Below, piece by piece: positions 2,209 to 33,567 of a stretch of DNA of 64,000 bases. Both the position numbers and the translations under genes were made by a program. Each line of letters begins with the position of its first letter. Within the stretch, counting starts at the first letter, position 1. Location: the NCBI RefSeq assembly GCF_003860125.1, contig NZ_RQYL01000004.1, forward strand, positions 62,001 to 126,000, given 5' to 3'. The notes under the pieces are model-generated. The model saw only the letters and a program-made list of their open reading frames with translations, was not told where the DNA came from and searched no databases. Source of the DNA: Fretibacterium sp. OH1220_COT-178. GTDB lineage: Bacteria > Synergistota > Synergistia > Synergistales > Aminobacteriaceae.

Positions 2209-3990
2209 TCACTCTGCCCAAACGGTCACGACGGGAAAACCGGAACGGGAACGTTCGATTCCAAATCGGGGCGCCAGAAAACTTCCAAGGGACTCCACGG
2301 ATCTGGTGCTCACCCAAAGAGGCAGGTCCGCCTCACCAGGATCCATGACGAAAAAACGCGCATCCTCCAAGGATCGGACGAGTGCCGCTCGATCCTCGCC
2401 CCGAGGCGTTTCGATCTGCACCAGGAAGCCGAAGGGGGGCAATTCGAGGGCTTTGCGATTGCTCAGCTCCTCACGCCAGAAACAACCCCACCCCCGCATC
2501 AAGGTGTCCCGCCAAGTACTGCCGCCCAAACGCCGGCCCTGAACCAACACGATGCGTGCCCTCTCCTCGGAGGGGGAGCGTCCCCTCCAATAGGACTCCC
2601 AGACCATGCTGTAGGCATGAAATCGGGCACCGTATTCGGCCTTTCGGAGTTCGGCGTCCAAATCCAGCCAAGCCGCCAAACCGACGTCCAGAGAATCGCA
2701 GAGCGTCAAAGCGCCGCGCGTCCCTAAAATCAGAGATGGAACGGCTTTTTGCCCTCTATGATGTCCTTCCTCACCGAGGATGATCGGATGACCACGGATA
2801 AAGCGGCCGGCCATAGTGGCGAGGGCTTCGAGCCCGGGCCTCCGCCCGGTCCAAAGAGAACCGCGACAGACAGAACAGGAACGCTCGAGGGACGTCCTGA
2901 GGCCGCATCGAATACAGCGCAGCCCCTTGCTTTTGCCTTCGACGCGCACGGTCCCCCCGCATCGGGAACAACGCACGGGGGTCCCGCAGTCCGAGCAGAA
3001 GACCTCTGCTGCCTCCCCCCGCCGATCCAGAATCCAAAGGACGTTACGACCTTCCTCAAGGGTCGATCGGGTTCGGCCCAGGAGCGACAGGGTCAGGGGC
3101 AGCGCACCATCGATCCCGCGGACATCCGCCTTCAGAGAGCGCTGCATGTCTACGAACACGAGATGCCGGCGGTCGGGCAACTCCATACATTCGGGGGACG
3201 TCCTGGAAAAGGTCTTGGAGGAGGGCATCCGTCCACCGAGCACCAGCTCCGCTCCCAGCCATCCTGCCCGCCGCCCCGCCAAGCTCCGGGCCGAGATGCG
3301 CGGCGGCCGCTGAGCGATATAGCCGGGGTTTGCCTCGTCGTCCACGATGATAACGTCGGGACGGAGAGGGGCGAAAACAGCCCCCGGCCCTCCGACGACG
3401 ATCGGTGTCGCGCCCTCTCGAACCGTCCTCCAAGCATCCCAGAGCTTTTTCCCCCCTGTGGAGGGCCATAGAAGCGCCTTCGATTGAAGATGGGAAGGAA
3501 GCCCGGCAAAAAAAGTCCGCGCCATTCCCCTCTCGGGAAAGAGGACCAAGGTGCGCTCTCCCCGCTCCATCGTCTGGATGTAGCGGTCCGCTCGCCTCCC
3601 GTCCCAGGGGATGAAGCAGGACGACTCCCGAAAACCCTTTGCGGAGGACGACAGGGGATTCCGGACGACAAGAAGTTCCCCCTTCAGAAGGGGGGGGGGA
3701 CAGAGGGCCTGAAGGGCCAGACCCGTTCCACACAGAAAGGTCCGCCCCATCCAGAGGGCCAAATCCCATAGATCATCCCCCAGAACGTTTTTCTCGTCAA
3801 GGACTTCGGCAACAGAGCGCAAGTTCCGGGGAAGCTCGCTCTGGCCGGCTGGCCCCAAAACAAAGCCCACGCGAACGCCTCTCCCCAGGGGGACCCGAAC
3901 CCGAGCCCCAACGGTCAAGGGACGATCCGCGCCATAGGTCAGCGAAGTCCACCATGGTCCTGGGACGACGACATCGACGAGATGGGGCAC
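2209..3990 (-). CDS. priA: PriA-family protein with degenerate helicase motifs
   Basis: A 593-residue protein with overall PriA architecture: an N-terminal DNA-binding region and the eight-cysteine zinc-binding insert (Cys 332, 335, 341, 344, 359, 362, 372, 375). PriA normally reloads the replisome at stalled forks with an ATP-dependent helicase. Here the helicase signatures are gone: no GxTGSGKT Walker A between residues 125 and 150, DEEH reads DDEA (217-220), the SATP motif reads GRMP (253-256), and the motif VI QVAGRAGR region near 460-470 is unrecognisable. E. coli PriA is about 730 residues, so it is also shorter. The GTG at 3988-3990 directly follows the coaBC stop. It probably keeps a structural, DNA-binding or primosome-assembly role without ATP hydrolysis. 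Confidence 0.82.
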   Translation of the reverse strand: MPHLVDVVVPGPWWTSLTYGADRPLTVGARVRVPLGRGVRVGFVLGPAGQSELPRNLRSVAEVLDEKNVLGDDLWDLALWMGRTFLCGTGLALQALCPPPLLKGELLVVRNPLSSSAKGFRESSCFIPWDGRRADRYIQTMERGERTLVLFPERGMARTFFAGLPSHLQSKALLWPSTGGKKLWDAWRTVREGATPIVVGGPGAVFAPLRPDVIIVDDEANPGYIAQRPPRISARSLAGRRAGWLGAELVLGGRMPSSKTFSRTSPECMELPDRRHLVFVDMQRSLKADVRGIDGALPLTLSLLGRTRSTLEEGRNVLWILDRRGEAAEVFCSDCGTPVRCSRCGGTVRVEGKSKGLRCIRCGLRTSLERSCSVCRGSLWTGRRPGLEALATMAGRFIRGHPIILGEEGHHRGQKAVPSLILGTRGALTLCDSLDVGLAAWLDLDAELRKAEYGARFHAYSMVWESYWRGRSPSEERARIVLVQGRRLGGSTWRDTLMRGWGCFWREELSNRKALELPPFGFLVQIETPRGEDRAALVRSLEDARFFVMDPGEADLPLWVSTRSVESLGSFLAPRFGIERSRSGFPVVTVWAE

Positions 3991-5205
3991 CTAGATCATG
4001 CCCCGCTCCGAGAGAAGCTCCCAGACGGAGTCCGCGACCTCCTCCTTACTCCCCGAAAATATGGTCTCGGCATCTCGGGAGAGCACGCGCACCGTATTGG
4101 TATCCGTGCCGAATCCACAGCCGGCAGCCGAGACATCGTTGGCCAGGATCAGATCCAAGCCCTTCCGCTCCATCTTCGCACGGGCGTTCTTCAGGAGATC
4201 GTCGGTCTCGGCGGCAAAACCGATCAGCGTTTGGTCGGGTCTTTTGCGCCGCCCCACCTCCGCCGCTATGTCCGGGTTCTGTACGAGCTCAATGGAGAGG
4301 GTCTCCCTCCCCTCCCTCTTCACCTTATGCCCGGCCCGATCCTTGGCGCGGTAGTCCCCCACCGCAGCGGCTTTGACGACGCACGTTGCCCAATCCAGGT
4401 CCTCCAACACCGCCCCGTACATCTCCTCGGCCGACACCACACGGCGTACGTCCAAGCCGTGCAGAACTCCCGGAGCCTCGACCGGCCCCAGAATCACCCT
4501 CACCTCGGCGCCCCGATACCAGGCTGTTCGAGCCATGGCAAGCCCCATCTTGCCGGTACTGGGATTGGAGATGTAGCGCACCGGATCCAGATATTCCCGG
4601 GTCGGCCCGGCCGTAACCAGGAGACGGACCGCATTCAGATTCCGAGCGGGAGACAGGGCCCGGAACACCTCCTCCAGGATCAGCCCCATCTCGGGCAGAC
4701 GTCCCTTGCCCTCGTAGCCGCAGGCCAGGCTGCCGAACTCGGGATCCACGATCCGAACCCCTCGCTCCGCGAGAACGCTCAGGTTATGCCGCGTCGCGGG
4801 ATGCTCGAACATGTGGACGTTCATCGCCGGAAAGAGAAGCACGGGAACCTTCGCGGCGAGCAACGCCGCAGCCACCAGGCTCTCTCCCTTCCCTTGGGCC
4901 AGATCCGATGCCGTATTGGCCGTACAGGGCGCGACGACGATGACCTCCGCCCAGTCCGTCAATCGGATGTGGGGGATCTCGTGCCCTCGCTCACAGGAGA
5001 GAAAATCCTCCTGAAGCCAGACCCGTCGCCCCGAGAGGGTCGAGAGCACAAGAGGACTGACCAGCCGCTCCGCCGCACGAGTCATGAGAATCTCCACCTC
5101 GCACTCCAACTTGCGGAGCCGGCTGACCAAGTCCGGAATCTTATAGGCCGCGATGCCGCCCGTCACGCAGAGCAGGATGCGCCGGGCCCGCTTCCAGCCG
5201 ATCAT
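3991..5205 (-). CDS. coaBC: bifunctional phosphopantothenoylcysteine decarboxylase / phosphopantothenate-cysteine ligase
   Basis: A 404-residue two-domain enzyme for coenzyme A synthesis. The N-terminal CoaC flavoprotein domain (about 1-185) has GGIAAYK, the catalytic-type His in IPHIRL (about 79), PAMNVHM (127-133) and the flexible-flap Cys in LACGYEGKG (about 162). The CoaB ligase domain (from about 195) has VTAGPTREYLDPVR and AAAVGDYR. The ATG at 5203-5205 overlaps the rpoZ stop as ATGA; a GTG at 5236-5238 inside rpoZ is less likely. Part of the yicC-gmk-rpoZ-coaBC-priA order common in many bacteria. Confidence 0.93.
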   Translation of the reverse strand: MIGWKRARRILLCVTGGIAAYKIPDLVSRLRKLECEVEILMTRAAERLVSPLVLSTLSGRRVWLQEDFLSCERGHEIPHIRLTDWAEVIVVAPCTANTASDLAQGKGESLVAAALLAAKVPVLLFPAMNVHMFEHPATRHNLSVLAERGVRIVDPEFGSLACGYEGKGRLPEMGLILEEVFRALSPARNLNAVRLLVTAGPTREYLDPVRYISNPSTGKMGLAMARTAWYRGAEVRVILGPVEAPGVLHGLDVRRVVSAEEMYGAVLEDLDWATCVVKAAAVGDYRAKDRAGHKVKREGRETLSIELVQNPDIAAEVGRRKRPDQTLIGFAAETDDLLKNARAKMERKGLDLILANDVSAAGCGFGTDTNTVRVLSRDAETIFSGSKEEVADSVWELLSERGMI

Positions 5206-5432
5206 GCCTCTTCCGGGACGGCCTCCGGAGAGCTGCACCTGTTCGCGGGAAACTCTCCCTTCTCCACCTCCAGTAAGGCCATGGAGAGGTATTTCTCGTT
5301 GGCAGGAAGCCCGTTCTCAACCGTTTTGTGCTCGCTGAGCCAGCGGGCTCTGGCCGCGATCAGGGCCGTAATTTCGTATTTGTTGTCGGTGTTGCACTTG
5401 TTCTCGAGCGCGTCGAGATCGTAAAACTTCAT
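5202..5432 (-). CDS. rpoZ: RNA polymerase omega subunit
   Basis: A 76-residue protein with the omega-family core NKYEITALIAARARWLSE and KYLSMALLEVEKGEF. Omega chaperones beta-prime into RNA polymerase. The position between gmk and coaBC is the classic bacterial arrangement and supports the call despite the small size. The ATG (5430-5432) overlaps the gmk stop as ATGA, and its own stop overlaps the coaBC start the same way, so the three genes are probably translationally coupled. Confidence 0.87.
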   Translation of the reverse strand: MKFYDLDALENKCNTDNKYEITALIAARARWLSEHKTVENGLPANEKYLSMALLEVEKGEFPANRCSSPEAVPEEA

Positions 5433-24426: not shown

Positions 24427-26419
24427 AGCCCCGTTTTCCTCCGTATCCGTCCCAATTTCCCCGACGTTCCTCCCCTCCGCGGTCGTCCAGATTTTTGTAC
24501 GCGTCGGGGATCTCAAACAGGAAGCGGGAGAACCCTTTGTCGAGCGTCGTCCCATAAAGACGCCGGCTGCGGGCCGCAGTGAGGTAGAGGCGTTCCTCCG
24601 CCCGTGTCATCCCCACATAACAGAGCCGGCGCTCCTCCTCCATTTGAGAGGGGTCGTCCTTCGCCCGCGAGTTCGGGAAGACGTCCTCTTCGAGCCCCAC
24701 GAGGAACACGACGGGAAACTCCAAGCCCTTGGCCGCATGCAGCGTCAGCAGGCCGACGGAGCGACGGTCGTCGGGATCCTGAGCGTCCGCGTCCGTAAAA
24801 AGGGCCGCCTCGGCCAGGGATTCGGCAAGGTCTCCCTCGGGGACGACGGAGCGGAGTTCCATGACGTTGTCGATGCGGTCCTCCCAATCCTCCGGATTCT
24901 TCTCCCTCAGAAAATCCTCGTAGCCCATGTGGTTCAGCACGTAATCGACCGCGGCCCCCACGCCGCGCTCTGCGGCCCTCAGAAGTCCTGCCATCTGTCG
25001 GCCGAATAGGGCGACCGCCCCTCCGACCTGTCCTTTGACCGGAAAAATCCCCTCACCCACCGCACGCCAGAAATCCCCGGCCGGCGAGGCGGGCACCGCA
25101 CCCGAGGCCTGCCACCCGGACCATTCCTCCCGTTTCTTCGGCCCCATGCCCTTGATCGCAAAAGCGGCCACACGCTCGAAGGAGGTCCTGTCGTCCGGGT
25201 TCACGGCCAGTTTCAGGACCGCGAGGACATCCCGGACCTCCTTACGCTCGTAAAAAGCCGTTCCCCGGACAATTCTATAAGGGATTGCCGCCTCCAGCAG
25301 CTTTTGTTCGTACAGGCGGCTCATGGTGTTCTGACGGTACAGAATGGCCATATCGCCGTAGTCGTAGCCATGATTCACCTTCAAACGTCCGATCTCCGCG
25401 GTGATGAAGCTCGCCTCCTGAAGATCGCTGTTTGCGAGCAGGGTATGGACCTTCTCCCCCTGCCCCCGTGCGGTCTTGAGCTCCTTCTCCTTTCGTGCGG
25501 AGTTGTTGCGGATCAGGGCGTTCGAGGCACCCAAAATATTGCCCGTCGAACGGTAGTTCTCGTCCAGAATGATGGTGTGGGCGTCTTTTTGCCCCGCCAT
25601 CCCCTTGAAATCCCGCTCGAAGTTCAGGATCATCCCGATATCCGCGCCGCGCCAGCCGTAGATGGACTGATCCGGATCGCCAACCACGTTCAGCCGGCAG
25701 TCCGGTCCCACGAGGTAGCGGAGCAGCAAGTACTGAGGCCGGTTGACGTCCTGATACTCGTCCACCAAGAGCCAGCGGATCCGCTCCCGCTCCGAGCGTT
25801 TCACCCCCTCGTCCGCAGCGAGGATCTGCAGGGGAACGATCATCAGGTCGTCGAAATCCACCGCTCCCCGGTTTCTCAGCTCCCTGCGGTACTCGTGGGC
25901 GACGTCCAGGTACAGGCCCTCCAGAAGGGGCTCCCGGCTCCCCGGCGACCAGGCCGCCCGATCCCTGGATATGGCGTCGAGAACCGAGGCGGGTTCGATA
26001 TCCTTGGTGTTGACCCCCATCCGCTCCAGGATCTGTTTGACCAGGGCACGGCTGTCCCCGCGATCGAAGACGGCGAAGCCCGGCTTTACCCCCGCCTGGG
26101 CCTCGGCGGCCTCCCGGTTCCGGAACAGAAACTTCAGGCCGAAGGCGTGAAAGGTGCTGACGCGCACCTCCTCCGCCCCGGAGGAGACCAAGGCCGAGAC
26201 GCGCTCGCGCATCTCCCCGGCGGCCTTGTTCGTAAACGTCATTGCCGTGATCTCCCAGGGCTTTGCCAGCCCCTCCGCAATCAGCCAGGCGACCTTGTGG
26301 GTCAGGACCCTTGTCTTCCCGCTGCCCGCCCCGGCCAGGATCAAAAGCGGCCCGTCTACATACGTCACGGCCTCTCGTTGCCTGGGCGAGAGGCGTTCCA
26401 GAATGTCCTTGTCCGACAT
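24380..26419 (-). CDS. UvrD/PcrA-type ATP-dependent DNA helicase
   Basis: A 679-residue superfamily 1A helicase. In order: Q motif LSPRQREAVTYVDGPLL, Walker A GAGSGKTRVL, motif Ia TNKAAGEMRERV, VSTFHAFG, Walker B LLVDEYQDVN, GDPDQSIYGWRGAD, the DENYRSTGNIL block, LTLHAAKGLEFPVVFLVG and EERRLCYVGMTRAEERLYL. It acts in nucleotide excision and mismatch repair or replication-fork clearance. The C-terminal tail (GGKRGYGSYGTGHYRGRRG) is glycine-arginine rich. The ATG has GAAGAGG upstream. First gene of a run with coaE and DHH-PAP. Confidence 0.93.
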   Translation of the reverse strand: MSDKDILERLSPRQREAVTYVDGPLLILAGAGSGKTRVLTHKVAWLIAEGLAKPWEITAMTFTNKAAGEMRERVSALVSSGAEEVRVSTFHAFGLKFLFRNREAAEAQAGVKPGFAVFDRGDSRALVKQILERMGVNTKDIEPASVLDAISRDRAAWSPGSREPLLEGLYLDVAHEYRRELRNRGAVDFDDLMIVPLQILAADEGVKRSERERIRWLLVDEYQDVNRPQYLLLRYLVGPDCRLNVVGDPDQSIYGWRGADIGMILNFERDFKGMAGQKDAHTIILDENYRSTGNILGASNALIRNNSARKEKELKTARGQGEKVHTLLANSDLQEASFITAEIGRLKVNHGYDYGDMAILYRQNTMSRLYEQKLLEAAIPYRIVRGTAFYERKEVRDVLAVLKLAVNPDDRTSFERVAAFAIKGMGPKKREEWSGWQASGAVPASPAGDFWRAVGEGIFPVKGQVGGAVALFGRQMAGLLRAAERGVGAAVDYVLNHMGYEDFLREKNPEDWEDRIDNVMELRSVVPEGDLAESLAEAALFTDADAQDPDDRRSVGLLTLHAAKGLEFPVVFLVGLEEDVFPNSRAKDDPSQMEEERRLCYVGMTRAEERLYLTAARSRRLYGTTLDKGFSRFLFEIPDAYKNLDDRGGEERRGNWDGYGGKRGYGSYGTGHYRGRRGW

Positions 26420-31512: not shown

Positions 31513-33567
31513 TCACGCGGTTCCTGCAAGGTTCAAAACATCCCCGAGCCGTCTCGTCAATTCCTCCCTGAGCGGGGATTCCGCGGCAAGCTGCGGGTCC
31601 CGTAAAAGAAGTTCCCGGGCTTCTTTCCGTGCCAGGGCGAGTATTCTTCGATCCCGCACCAGATCGGCGACGCGGAAATCGGTGAGTCCATGCTGCCGGA
31701 TCCCACAGAGTTCCCCCGGCCCCCGCTGTTTCAGATCCGCCTCGGCCAGAGCGAAACCGTCCGAAGTCCGGGCCATGATCTCGAGGCGAGCCTCCCCCTC
31801 CGGCGAGCGCGTCGGCCCATCCAAAAGGACGCAGACGCTACGCGCATGGCCGCGCCCTACCCGCCCCCTCAACTGGTGAAGCTGCGCCAGCCCGAACCGA
31901 CCGGCGTCCTCGATGATCATGAGGGTCGCATTGGGGACATCCAATCCAACCTCGATCACGAGCGTCGAGACCAGAAGATCGACCTCCCCCGCCGTAAAAC
32001 GGTTCATGATCGAGGCCTTCTCCTCCAGGGGAAGACGCCCGTGCAGCATGGCGATGCGGAGCTCGGGCAGCGCCTTCAGAAGGAGGGCATAACGGGAGGT
32101 GACCGCTCTCGCCTCCGTTCCCTCTTCCTCCTCGATGACGGGGCAAACCCAGTAAATCTGCCCCCCGCTGCGGACGTGCTCTCGGATCAGTTCCGTCAGG
32201 GCTGTCTCGTTCCCAAATCCGGCACGCCGGGTCTCGATGGGCCTCCGCCCGGGAGGAAGCTCGTCCAGTACGGAGACCTCCAGGTCGCCGTAGACCGAAA
32301 GGACCAGGGTCCTGGGAATCGGCGTCGCCGTCATCACCAGGACGTGGGGCATCGTCCCCTTTGCGATCAGATTCTTCCTCTGGAGGACGCCAAAACGATG
32401 CTGCTCATCCACGACCACCAGCCCCAGATTGGAGAAGGAGACCTCGTCTCCGAGTACGGCATGGGTACCGACGACAACCTGTGCCCCGCCCTCCTGCAGC
32501 GAGGCCCGCACGGAGCGGCGCTCGGCGGCCCTTTGCCCTCCGGTCAGAAGGACGGTTTCGATTCCCCAGGGGGCAAACATATGGCTGAGTCTAAAGTAGT
32601 GCTGCTGAGCCAGAATCTCGGTCGGGACCATGAAGGCCGACTGAACTCCGGAATCCGCTGCGGCCAGGATGGCCGCAGCGGCGACCAGGGTCTTTCCCGA
32701 CCCCACATCCCCTTGGAGCAAGCGGTTCATGGGAGTGCAGGACCCCATATCCCGCAAGATTTCTTTTACGGCTCGCCGTTGGGCCCCCGTGAGGGAGAAG
32801 GGAAGAGAAGCGCCCATAAGGGCCTCGAAACGCCGCCCCGGCTTGATGGGACGTGCGTCCGAGGAGGCTTCGTGTCGCCTGCGGCGCAACAAGAGCCCTG
32901 TCTGAAGAAGAAAGAGCTCGTCGAAGGCCAATCGGTTTCTGGCCTTCAGCCATGAATTTCTGTCCTCGGGGTGATGCAGTTCGTAAACCGCCTCCGAGAG
33001 CCCCCTCATGCGGTGCCGTTCCCGGATCGAACGCGGGAGAAAATCCACCAGTCCGCCCCCATAGGCATCGAGTGTCTCATCGATCAGACGCCTCAGCCAT
33101 TTTTGTGCGAGTGACGCCGTGAGGGAGTAGACGGGAACGATCCGTCCGACGGAGCGAGGTCCCTCTTCCTCCTCCAGAATCTCGAACTCGGGGTTGGTCA
33201 GCTGGAGGCCGCCTCGATGCTCCACTTTTCCGTAAAGGGCCAGTCTGGTTCCGACGGCCAGCTGCGTCGCAAGACGCTGGCCGTTGAACCAAACGGCGCG
33301 AACCCTGCCGGTCTCGTCGGCCAGGAGCACCGAGATCGGACCTCCACAATATGCGGGGGCATGAAGCGAAACGACTTCCGCGATCAGCGCGGCGGTCGCG
33401 TCGGCACGCAGGTCCCGCACGCACACGAGCGTTCGGCGATCCTCGTAGCGTCGAGGGAAGAACAGGAGCAAATCCCTCACAGTAAAAATGCCCAGGCGGG
33501 CAAGGGCCTGGGCACGCTTTTCTCCTACACCGCGAAGGAACCGAACCGAAGAGGACAAATCCGTCAT
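31513..33567 (-). CDS. recG: ATP-dependent DNA helicase RecG
   Basis: A 684-residue superfamily 2 helicase that remodels forks and Holliday junctions. N-terminal wedge/OB domain (VRDLLLFFPRRYEDRR; GRVRAVWFNG), then PFSLTGAQRRAVKEIL, Walker A LLQGDVGSGKT, Walker B VVVDEQHRFGV, TATPIPRTL, and motif VI QLRGRVGRG; the C-terminal TRG-type wedge follows. The ATG at 33565-33567 lacks a clear ribosome-binding site; a GTG five codons upstream is an alternative. Between divIVA and recX. Confidence 0.94.
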   Translation of the reverse strand: MTDLSSSVRFLRGVGEKRAQALARLGIFTVRDLLLFFPRRYEDRRTLVCVRDLRADATAALIAEVVSLHAPAYCGGPISVLLADETGRVRAVWFNGQRLATQLAVGTRLALYGKVEHRGGLQLTNPEFEILEEEEGPRSVGRIVPVYSLTASLAQKWLRRLIDETLDAYGGGLVDFLPRSIRERHRMRGLSEAVYELHHPEDRNSWLKARNRLAFDELFLLQTGLLLRRRRHEASSDARPIKPGRRFEALMGASLPFSLTGAQRRAVKEILRDMGSCTPMNRLLQGDVGSGKTLVAAAAILAAADSGVQSAFMVPTEILAQQHYFRLSHMFAPWGIETVLLTGGQRAAERRSVRASLQEGGAQVVVGTHAVLGDEVSFSNLGLVVVDEQHRFGVLQRKNLIAKGTMPHVLVMTATPIPRTLVLSVYGDLEVSVLDELPPGRRPIETRRAGFGNETALTELIREHVRSGGQIYWVCPVIEEEEGTEARAVTSRYALLLKALPELRIAMLHGRLPLEEKASIMNRFTAGEVDLLVSTLVIEVGLDVPNATLMIIEDAGRFGLAQLHQLRGRVGRGHARSVCVLLDGPTRSPEGEARLEIMARTSDGFALAEADLKQRGPGELCGIRQHGLTDFRVADLVRDRRILALARKEARELLLRDPQLAAESPLREELTRRLGDVLNLAGTA

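Follow-up and report, generated by a model that had tools for sequence, protein, structure and literature searches.

A putative PriA pseudohelicase, stripped of its helicase motifs and winged-helix domain, is conserved throughout the phylum Synergistota

The window analysed here, a stretch of 64,000 nucleotides of DNA, belongs to a Synergistota genome with an estimated completeness of 99.96%, has its related loci in Fretibacterium and other Synergistaceae, and contains a gene for a PriA-like protein in which the ATPase and helicase motifs of PriA are missing. The question raised by this locus is whether such a protein is still maintained as PriA and, if so, what it might do at a replication fork without a motor. 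The gene and its neighbor are located as follows.

2209..3990, minus strand: gene of the putative PriA pseudohelicase (593 aa), starting with GTG right after the stop codon of coaBC
3991..5238, minus strand: coaBC, upstream neighbor of priA (Pfam)

The window protein is a PriA ortholog and the sole PriA copy of its genome. The initial annotation had aligned it with PriA by eye, and this assignment is borne out by profile and structure-chain searches. The 3'-DNA-binding domain (PF17764) is recognized with 58.1 bits (cut-off 22.7), and the chains of E. coli and Klebsiella PriA from crystal and cryo-EM structures match the protein in phmmer searches with E values of 1e-33 to 1e-34. The PriA helicase equivalog TIGR00595 matches with E 2.9e-37 and 128.4 bits, below its curated cut-off of 230.35, and PRK14873.1-3 reach only 90 bits (cut-off 812). 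Orthology is further supported by the gene order coaBC-priA, which is shared with the Listeria locus. The initial annotation had left open whether another intact PriA exists; none was found in the 99.96% complete genome, where the other TIGR00595 matches are partial and fall on the helicase domains of proteins of 702-1046 aa.

The domains of PriA are retained in part:

3697..3975, minus strand: 3'-DNA-binding domain, residues 6-98, kept (PF17764 match)
3622..3693, minus strand: short linker, residues 100-123, where E. coli PriA has the winged helix and LNxEQ (alignment)
2866..2997, minus strand: cysteine-rich two-zinc region, with Cys 332, 335, 341, 344, 359, 362, 372 and 375 all present
2212..2433, minus strand: C-terminal domain, residues about 520-593, kept but short (homology, alignment, model)

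The eight cysteines align with C436-C479 of E. coli PriA, a module inserted in helicase lobe 2. They were described as intact from the letters of the sequence, and they are indeed invariant in 133/133 PriAs of the phylum. The loss of the winged-helix domain had gone unmentioned. This domain was searched for in the window protein and is absent from it; about 105 residues of the E. coli protein (108-212), comprising the winged helix and LNxEQ, correspond to a median of 12 residues in Synergistota PriAs. A second change concerns Asp17, which is crucial for 3'-end recognition in E. coli PriA (PMC4129139) and nearly invariable according to the literature. Its position is taken by Thr in the window protein (stretch TSLTYG, window 3931-3948) and by Thr or Ser in most Synergistota PriAs, deep-branching members included, so that DNA specificity may have changed. 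With Asp17 replaced and the winged helix, which contacts the parental duplex, gone, recognition of the fork by Synergistota PriA may, judging from the alignment, differ from that in E. coli.

The former ATPase and helicase motifs of the window protein are found at these positions:

3580..3621, minus strand: former Walker A site, SCFIPWDGRRADRY, residues 124-137; Gly/Lys/Thr gone, strand-turn-helix kept in the model, nearly invariant Arg in the Lys230 column
3328..3345, minus strand: former Walker B / motif II, VDDEAN, residues 216-221 (alignment)
3217..3237, minus strand: former motif III, residues 252-258, where GSATPS has given way to GGRMPSS, conserved and specific to the phylum
3016..3036, minus strand: WILDRRG, residues 319-325, kept equivalent of LFLNRRG, with invariant Arg and, in Synergistales, invariant Trp
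2581..2601, minus strand: former motif VI / arginine-finger site, residues 464-470, now WESYWRG, a conserved motif specific to the phylum

In the alignment to E. coli PriA, GVTGSGKTEVY corresponds to IPWDGRRADRY, DEEH to DDEA, SATP to GRMP and QVAGRAGR to ESYW-R-GR (WESYWRG in the window protein), which agrees to the letter with the motif losses first listed for this gene. An intact GKT elsewhere in the protein, which would have spoken against these losses, was looked for and is absent. GK[ST] occurs a single time, as VEGKSK in the zinc region, where it forms no P-loop, and GGKK (residues 179-182) aligns with HSGLNDSER of E. coli rather than with the P-loop. A scan of the 133 phylum PriAs for GK[ST] delivered scattered chance triplets, none of them conserved or at the P-loop position. 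Chance matches to [AG]xxxxGK[ST] occur in 3/133 and are likewise unconserved and located elsewhere than the Walker A site.

Loss of the motifs is fixed in the whole phylum Synergistota and is no local decay of one protein. Profile searches delivered TIGR00595 matches in 188/188 Synergistota genomes, of which four exceed the helicase cut-off. Motifs I, II, III and VI were mapped on an alignment of 133 different PriAs from across the families, five of them from deep lineages outside the main order; GKT, DEEH, SATP and QxxGRxGR are each found at the E. coli positions in 0/133. In their place other residues are conserved. The column of the Walker lysine (Lys230) holds Arg in 131/133, ESxWRG occupies the QVAGRAGR site in 109/133, and most Synergistales carry GGRxPSS for GSATPS and WILDRKG for LFLNRRG, while acidic residues are still present at the Walker B position in nearly all members. 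The term "decaying" chosen in the initial annotation is therefore misleading, since the motifs were replaced by other conserved residues long ago. Two irregular cases were noted in the phylum. One metagenome-assembled genome with 9% contamination (G102) contains two PriA pseudohelicases, L042 and L043, which are 76% identical and most likely reflect contamination rather than duplication. A single one of the listed best matches (G061:C93:7500-8858) has an internal TAA, indicating either a pseudogene or a sequencing error.

A protein that has lost every catalytic motif and scores well under the PriA helicase cut-off could be a degenerating pseudogene, or a copy drifting neutrally beside a functional PriA. 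This explanation is given next to no credence. No other PriA exists in the genome, and the aligned Synergistota copies are open reading frames with all eight cysteines. Nei-Gojobori dN/dS values of close priA pairs range from 0.06 to 0.33, mostly 0.1-0.2, far below the value near 1 expected for a neutral copy; 0.44 was obtained for one pair with almost no differences. The zinc region and lobe 1 of the former motor are under similar constraint. The invariant residues, the newly conserved motifs and the high-confidence predicted fold also speak against decay. The single copy and the low dN/dS thus show that the protein is maintained despite the loss of its motor. The proposal that selection acts on a PriA devoid of ATPase motifs is well supported by the single copy, phylum-wide occurrence, low dN/dS, invariant cysteines and confidently modeled fold.

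The structure of the window protein was predicted with AlphaFold2 from a 104-sequence phylum alignment (pLDDT 94.1, pTM 0.93). In Foldseek searches of the PDB the top nine matches are all PriA (E 3e-40 to 1e-30), in agreement on the overall fold of lobes, cysteine-rich region (CRR) and C-terminal domain (CTD). The best match is 8fak, E. coli PriA with a replication fork and PriB (TM 0.79, rmsd 5.8), followed by 6dcr, an E. coli PriA from which the winged helix was deleted (TM 0.71); the remaining PriA crystal forms reach TM 0.63-0.71. In E. coli PriA the CRR, HD2 and CTD frame a pore for single-stranded DNA, with the zinc module in a rotated, pore-forming position (PMC10175261). Because the fork-bound form matches better, the model hints at the same position of the module in the window protein.

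The P-loop site is rewritten rather than deleted: the model retains a strand (121-125), a four-residue turn and a helix (130-141). This element, the nearly invariant Arg in the Lys230 column and the acidic Walker B position could be taken as signs that ATP or another nucleotide is still bound and hydrolyzed in a displaced or rebuilt site. Such a site is very unlikely. Walker A is found there in none of the 133 proteins, LNxEQ, the motif III Thr and the motif VI arginines are gone, and the change from Lys to Arg at this very position abolishes the activity of E. coli PriA (PMC4504706).

PriA pseudohelicases are a kind already known: that of D. radiodurans is demonstrated, and the actinobacterial type likewise lacks the motifs. 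The window protein resembles the D. radiodurans type in its PriA ancestry without Walker A and B and as the sole PriA of its genome under selection. D. radiodurans PriA neither hydrolyzes ATP nor unwinds DNA, but binds single-stranded DNA and forks and interacts with DnaB (PMC4504706). Like that protein (Lopper et al. 2015, PMC4504706), the window protein is a PriA ortholog with unusable Walker A and B and the exchange of the Walker Lys for Arg, which is the Deinococcus-Thermus change (PMC4504706). The Walker A of D. radiodurans keeps a recognizable GRT, and the report stresses motifs I and II (PMC4504706), whereas in Synergistota none of motifs I, II, III and VI has kept its sequence, the winged helix is deleted and replacement motifs occur phylum-wide. 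Fork and DnaB binding without ATPase have been measured for the D. radiodurans protein only. E. coli PriA (8fak, 4nl4-type) shares with the window protein the 3'-DNA-binding domain, two helicase lobes, eight-cysteine region and CTD, equal in order and fold, but is a 3'-5' helicase with a winged helix, all SF2 motifs and a different residue at the Asp17 position. ATPase-dead mutants of E. coli PriA are viable (PMC4504706), and K230A variants have been employed in DnaB-loading assays (PMC10175261).

DnaB is present in the window genome. DciA was detected in 92/101 Synergistota genomes, the window genome included, and had no match in the remaining 9/101. DnaD/DnaB_2 and PriC over the cut-off were each found in 0/61 Synergistota genomes; PriC matches in two genomes were rejected as sub-threshold 40-residue matches within frames of about 700 aa. 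Matches of the IstB/DnaC type were for the most part either frames of transposon type, scattered over genomes, or proteins of DnaA size (about 440-480 aa), and no universal DnaC/DnaI was seen among them. DciA is thus the only recognized loader-type partner. The link between PriA and DciA is one of co-occurrence only. The idea that DciA tracks Walker-less PriA across the sampled bacteria was rejected, as it accompanies 13/18 such proteins vs 33/40 elsewhere in that sample. Two helicase-like frames were noted in the window, namely a UvrD/PcrA-type helicase match at 24569-25573 (minus strand, 683-aa frame) and a 702-aa frame at about 32389-32721 (minus strand), RecG-like in size, which the PriA profile matches in the helicase part only. 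The proteins of both frames are candidates to supply the unwinding missing from PriA.

Synergistota PriA is most likely an ATPase-free, fork-recognizing pseudohelicase and docking platform for the reloading of DnaB, kept by selection. In the phylum ancestor, or a very early member, the winged helix and every motif for handling ATP would have disappeared, after which selection would have kept the protein as an ATPase-free pseudohelicase. Branched DNA would be recognized by three parts of the protein: the 3'-binding domain, the pair of former helicase lobes and the zinc module. Their E. coli counterparts make up the surface that binds the fork and the pore for lagging-strand ssDNA. The protein would then dock DnaB for reloading, probably with DciA and with no unwinding of its own, and lagging-strand duplex would be removed by other enzymes, e.g. 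the UvrD/PcrA-type helicase of the genome. Orthology, the loss of motifs across the phylum and of the domain, the predicted fold, purifying selection, and the presence of DnaB and DciA with no DnaD- or PriC-type partner detected are observed here; lack of ATPase activity, fork binding and recruitment of DnaB or DciA are what we infer. DNA binding and loader recruitment as its only role is plausible by analogy to D. radiodurans. More tentatively, the ATP-free restart initiator may rest near the fork-bound "pore" conformation, with the former ATP and arginine-finger sites (invariant Arg, ESxWRG, GGRxPSS) turned into a new docking surface for DnaB-DciA.

Departure of the protein from replication restart to another DNA- or RNA-related function is rather unlikely. 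In its favor, the protein has lost the winged helix as well as residues that recognize the 3' end, and the strong phylum-specific motifs ESxWRG, GGRxPSS and WILDRKG are unlike canonical PriA. On the other hand, the 3'-binding domain, lobes, zinc module and CTD are kept in the PriA arrangement, coaBC-priA synteny is conserved, and the protein is the only PriA in the genome and present throughout the phylum, as a core restart protein should be. The pseudohelicase PriA of D. radiodurans, moreover, retains fork and DnaB binding (PMC4504706). The "new function" named as an alternative in the initial annotation finds no direct support.

What appears to be new is the phylum-wide distribution, the loss of the winged helix and the replacement motifs. 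The open-access literature searched contains no description of a phylum-wide, more deeply stripped PriA with replacement motifs, and no papers combining PriA or replication restart with Synergistetes or Synergistota were returned from it. The findings suggest that PriA can dispense with its helicase activity in an entire phylum, beyond Deinococcus and laboratory mutants of E. coli. The purpose of the ATPase can thereby be tested directly, in a comparison between lineages that have it and lineages that lack it. The motifs specific to the phylum point to the places at which a motorless restart protein may contact its loader. Where PriA of Synergistota, Actinobacteria and several further groups is annotated as "replication restart helicase PriA", the stated activity is probably wrong. 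UniProt/HAMAP already notes a probable lack of helicase activity for the actinobacterial type.

Like Synergistota PriA, the actinobacterial type (NCBIfam PRK14873, sampled as L198) is a PriA frame without recognizable Walker A, DEEH, SATP and QxxGRxGR, but the Synergistota lineage is separate and its replacement sequences are other ones. Relatives were searched in about 200 genomes from many bacterial families outside Synergistota. The 30 top-scoring PriAs all have a GxxxSGKT P-loop, and among the 35 weakest genomes 18 contain a PriA-like match without Walker A. A natural PriA from genome G273 (L165, 669-aa frame) has 13 residues in the winged-helix span and all helicase motifs intact. Its domain content, as that of the E. 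coli construct 6dcr, equals that of the window protein, but no helicase motif is missing from L165, and 6dcr was engineered from the active E. coli enzyme. Loss of the winged helix and loss of the motifs are thus separable, and the winged helix is not strictly required for membership in PriA. L189 (G252), which has in addition lost the motifs, is in both trees the partner of the canonical L165 among the sequences that carry the motifs, so that at least one further motor loss looks independent; the pair is a possible second example of this route to a PriA with neither winged helix nor motor. The motor of PriA was probably lost more than once, which suggests that such losses recur in bacteria. 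A common origin of all Walker-less PriAs was set aside, as L189 falls in the motif-bearing set and long branches limit the trees, the deep branching among Walker-less sequences included. Synergistota PriAs as one clade are not rejected (p-AU 0.48), with a wandering placement of L005. Outside Synergistota the Walker-less proteins are L179, L181, L183, L184, L186-L194, L197-L199, L201 and L207, with the call as PriA-like less certain for the very divergent L197, L199, L201 and L207; Arg is often found in the Walker Lys column.
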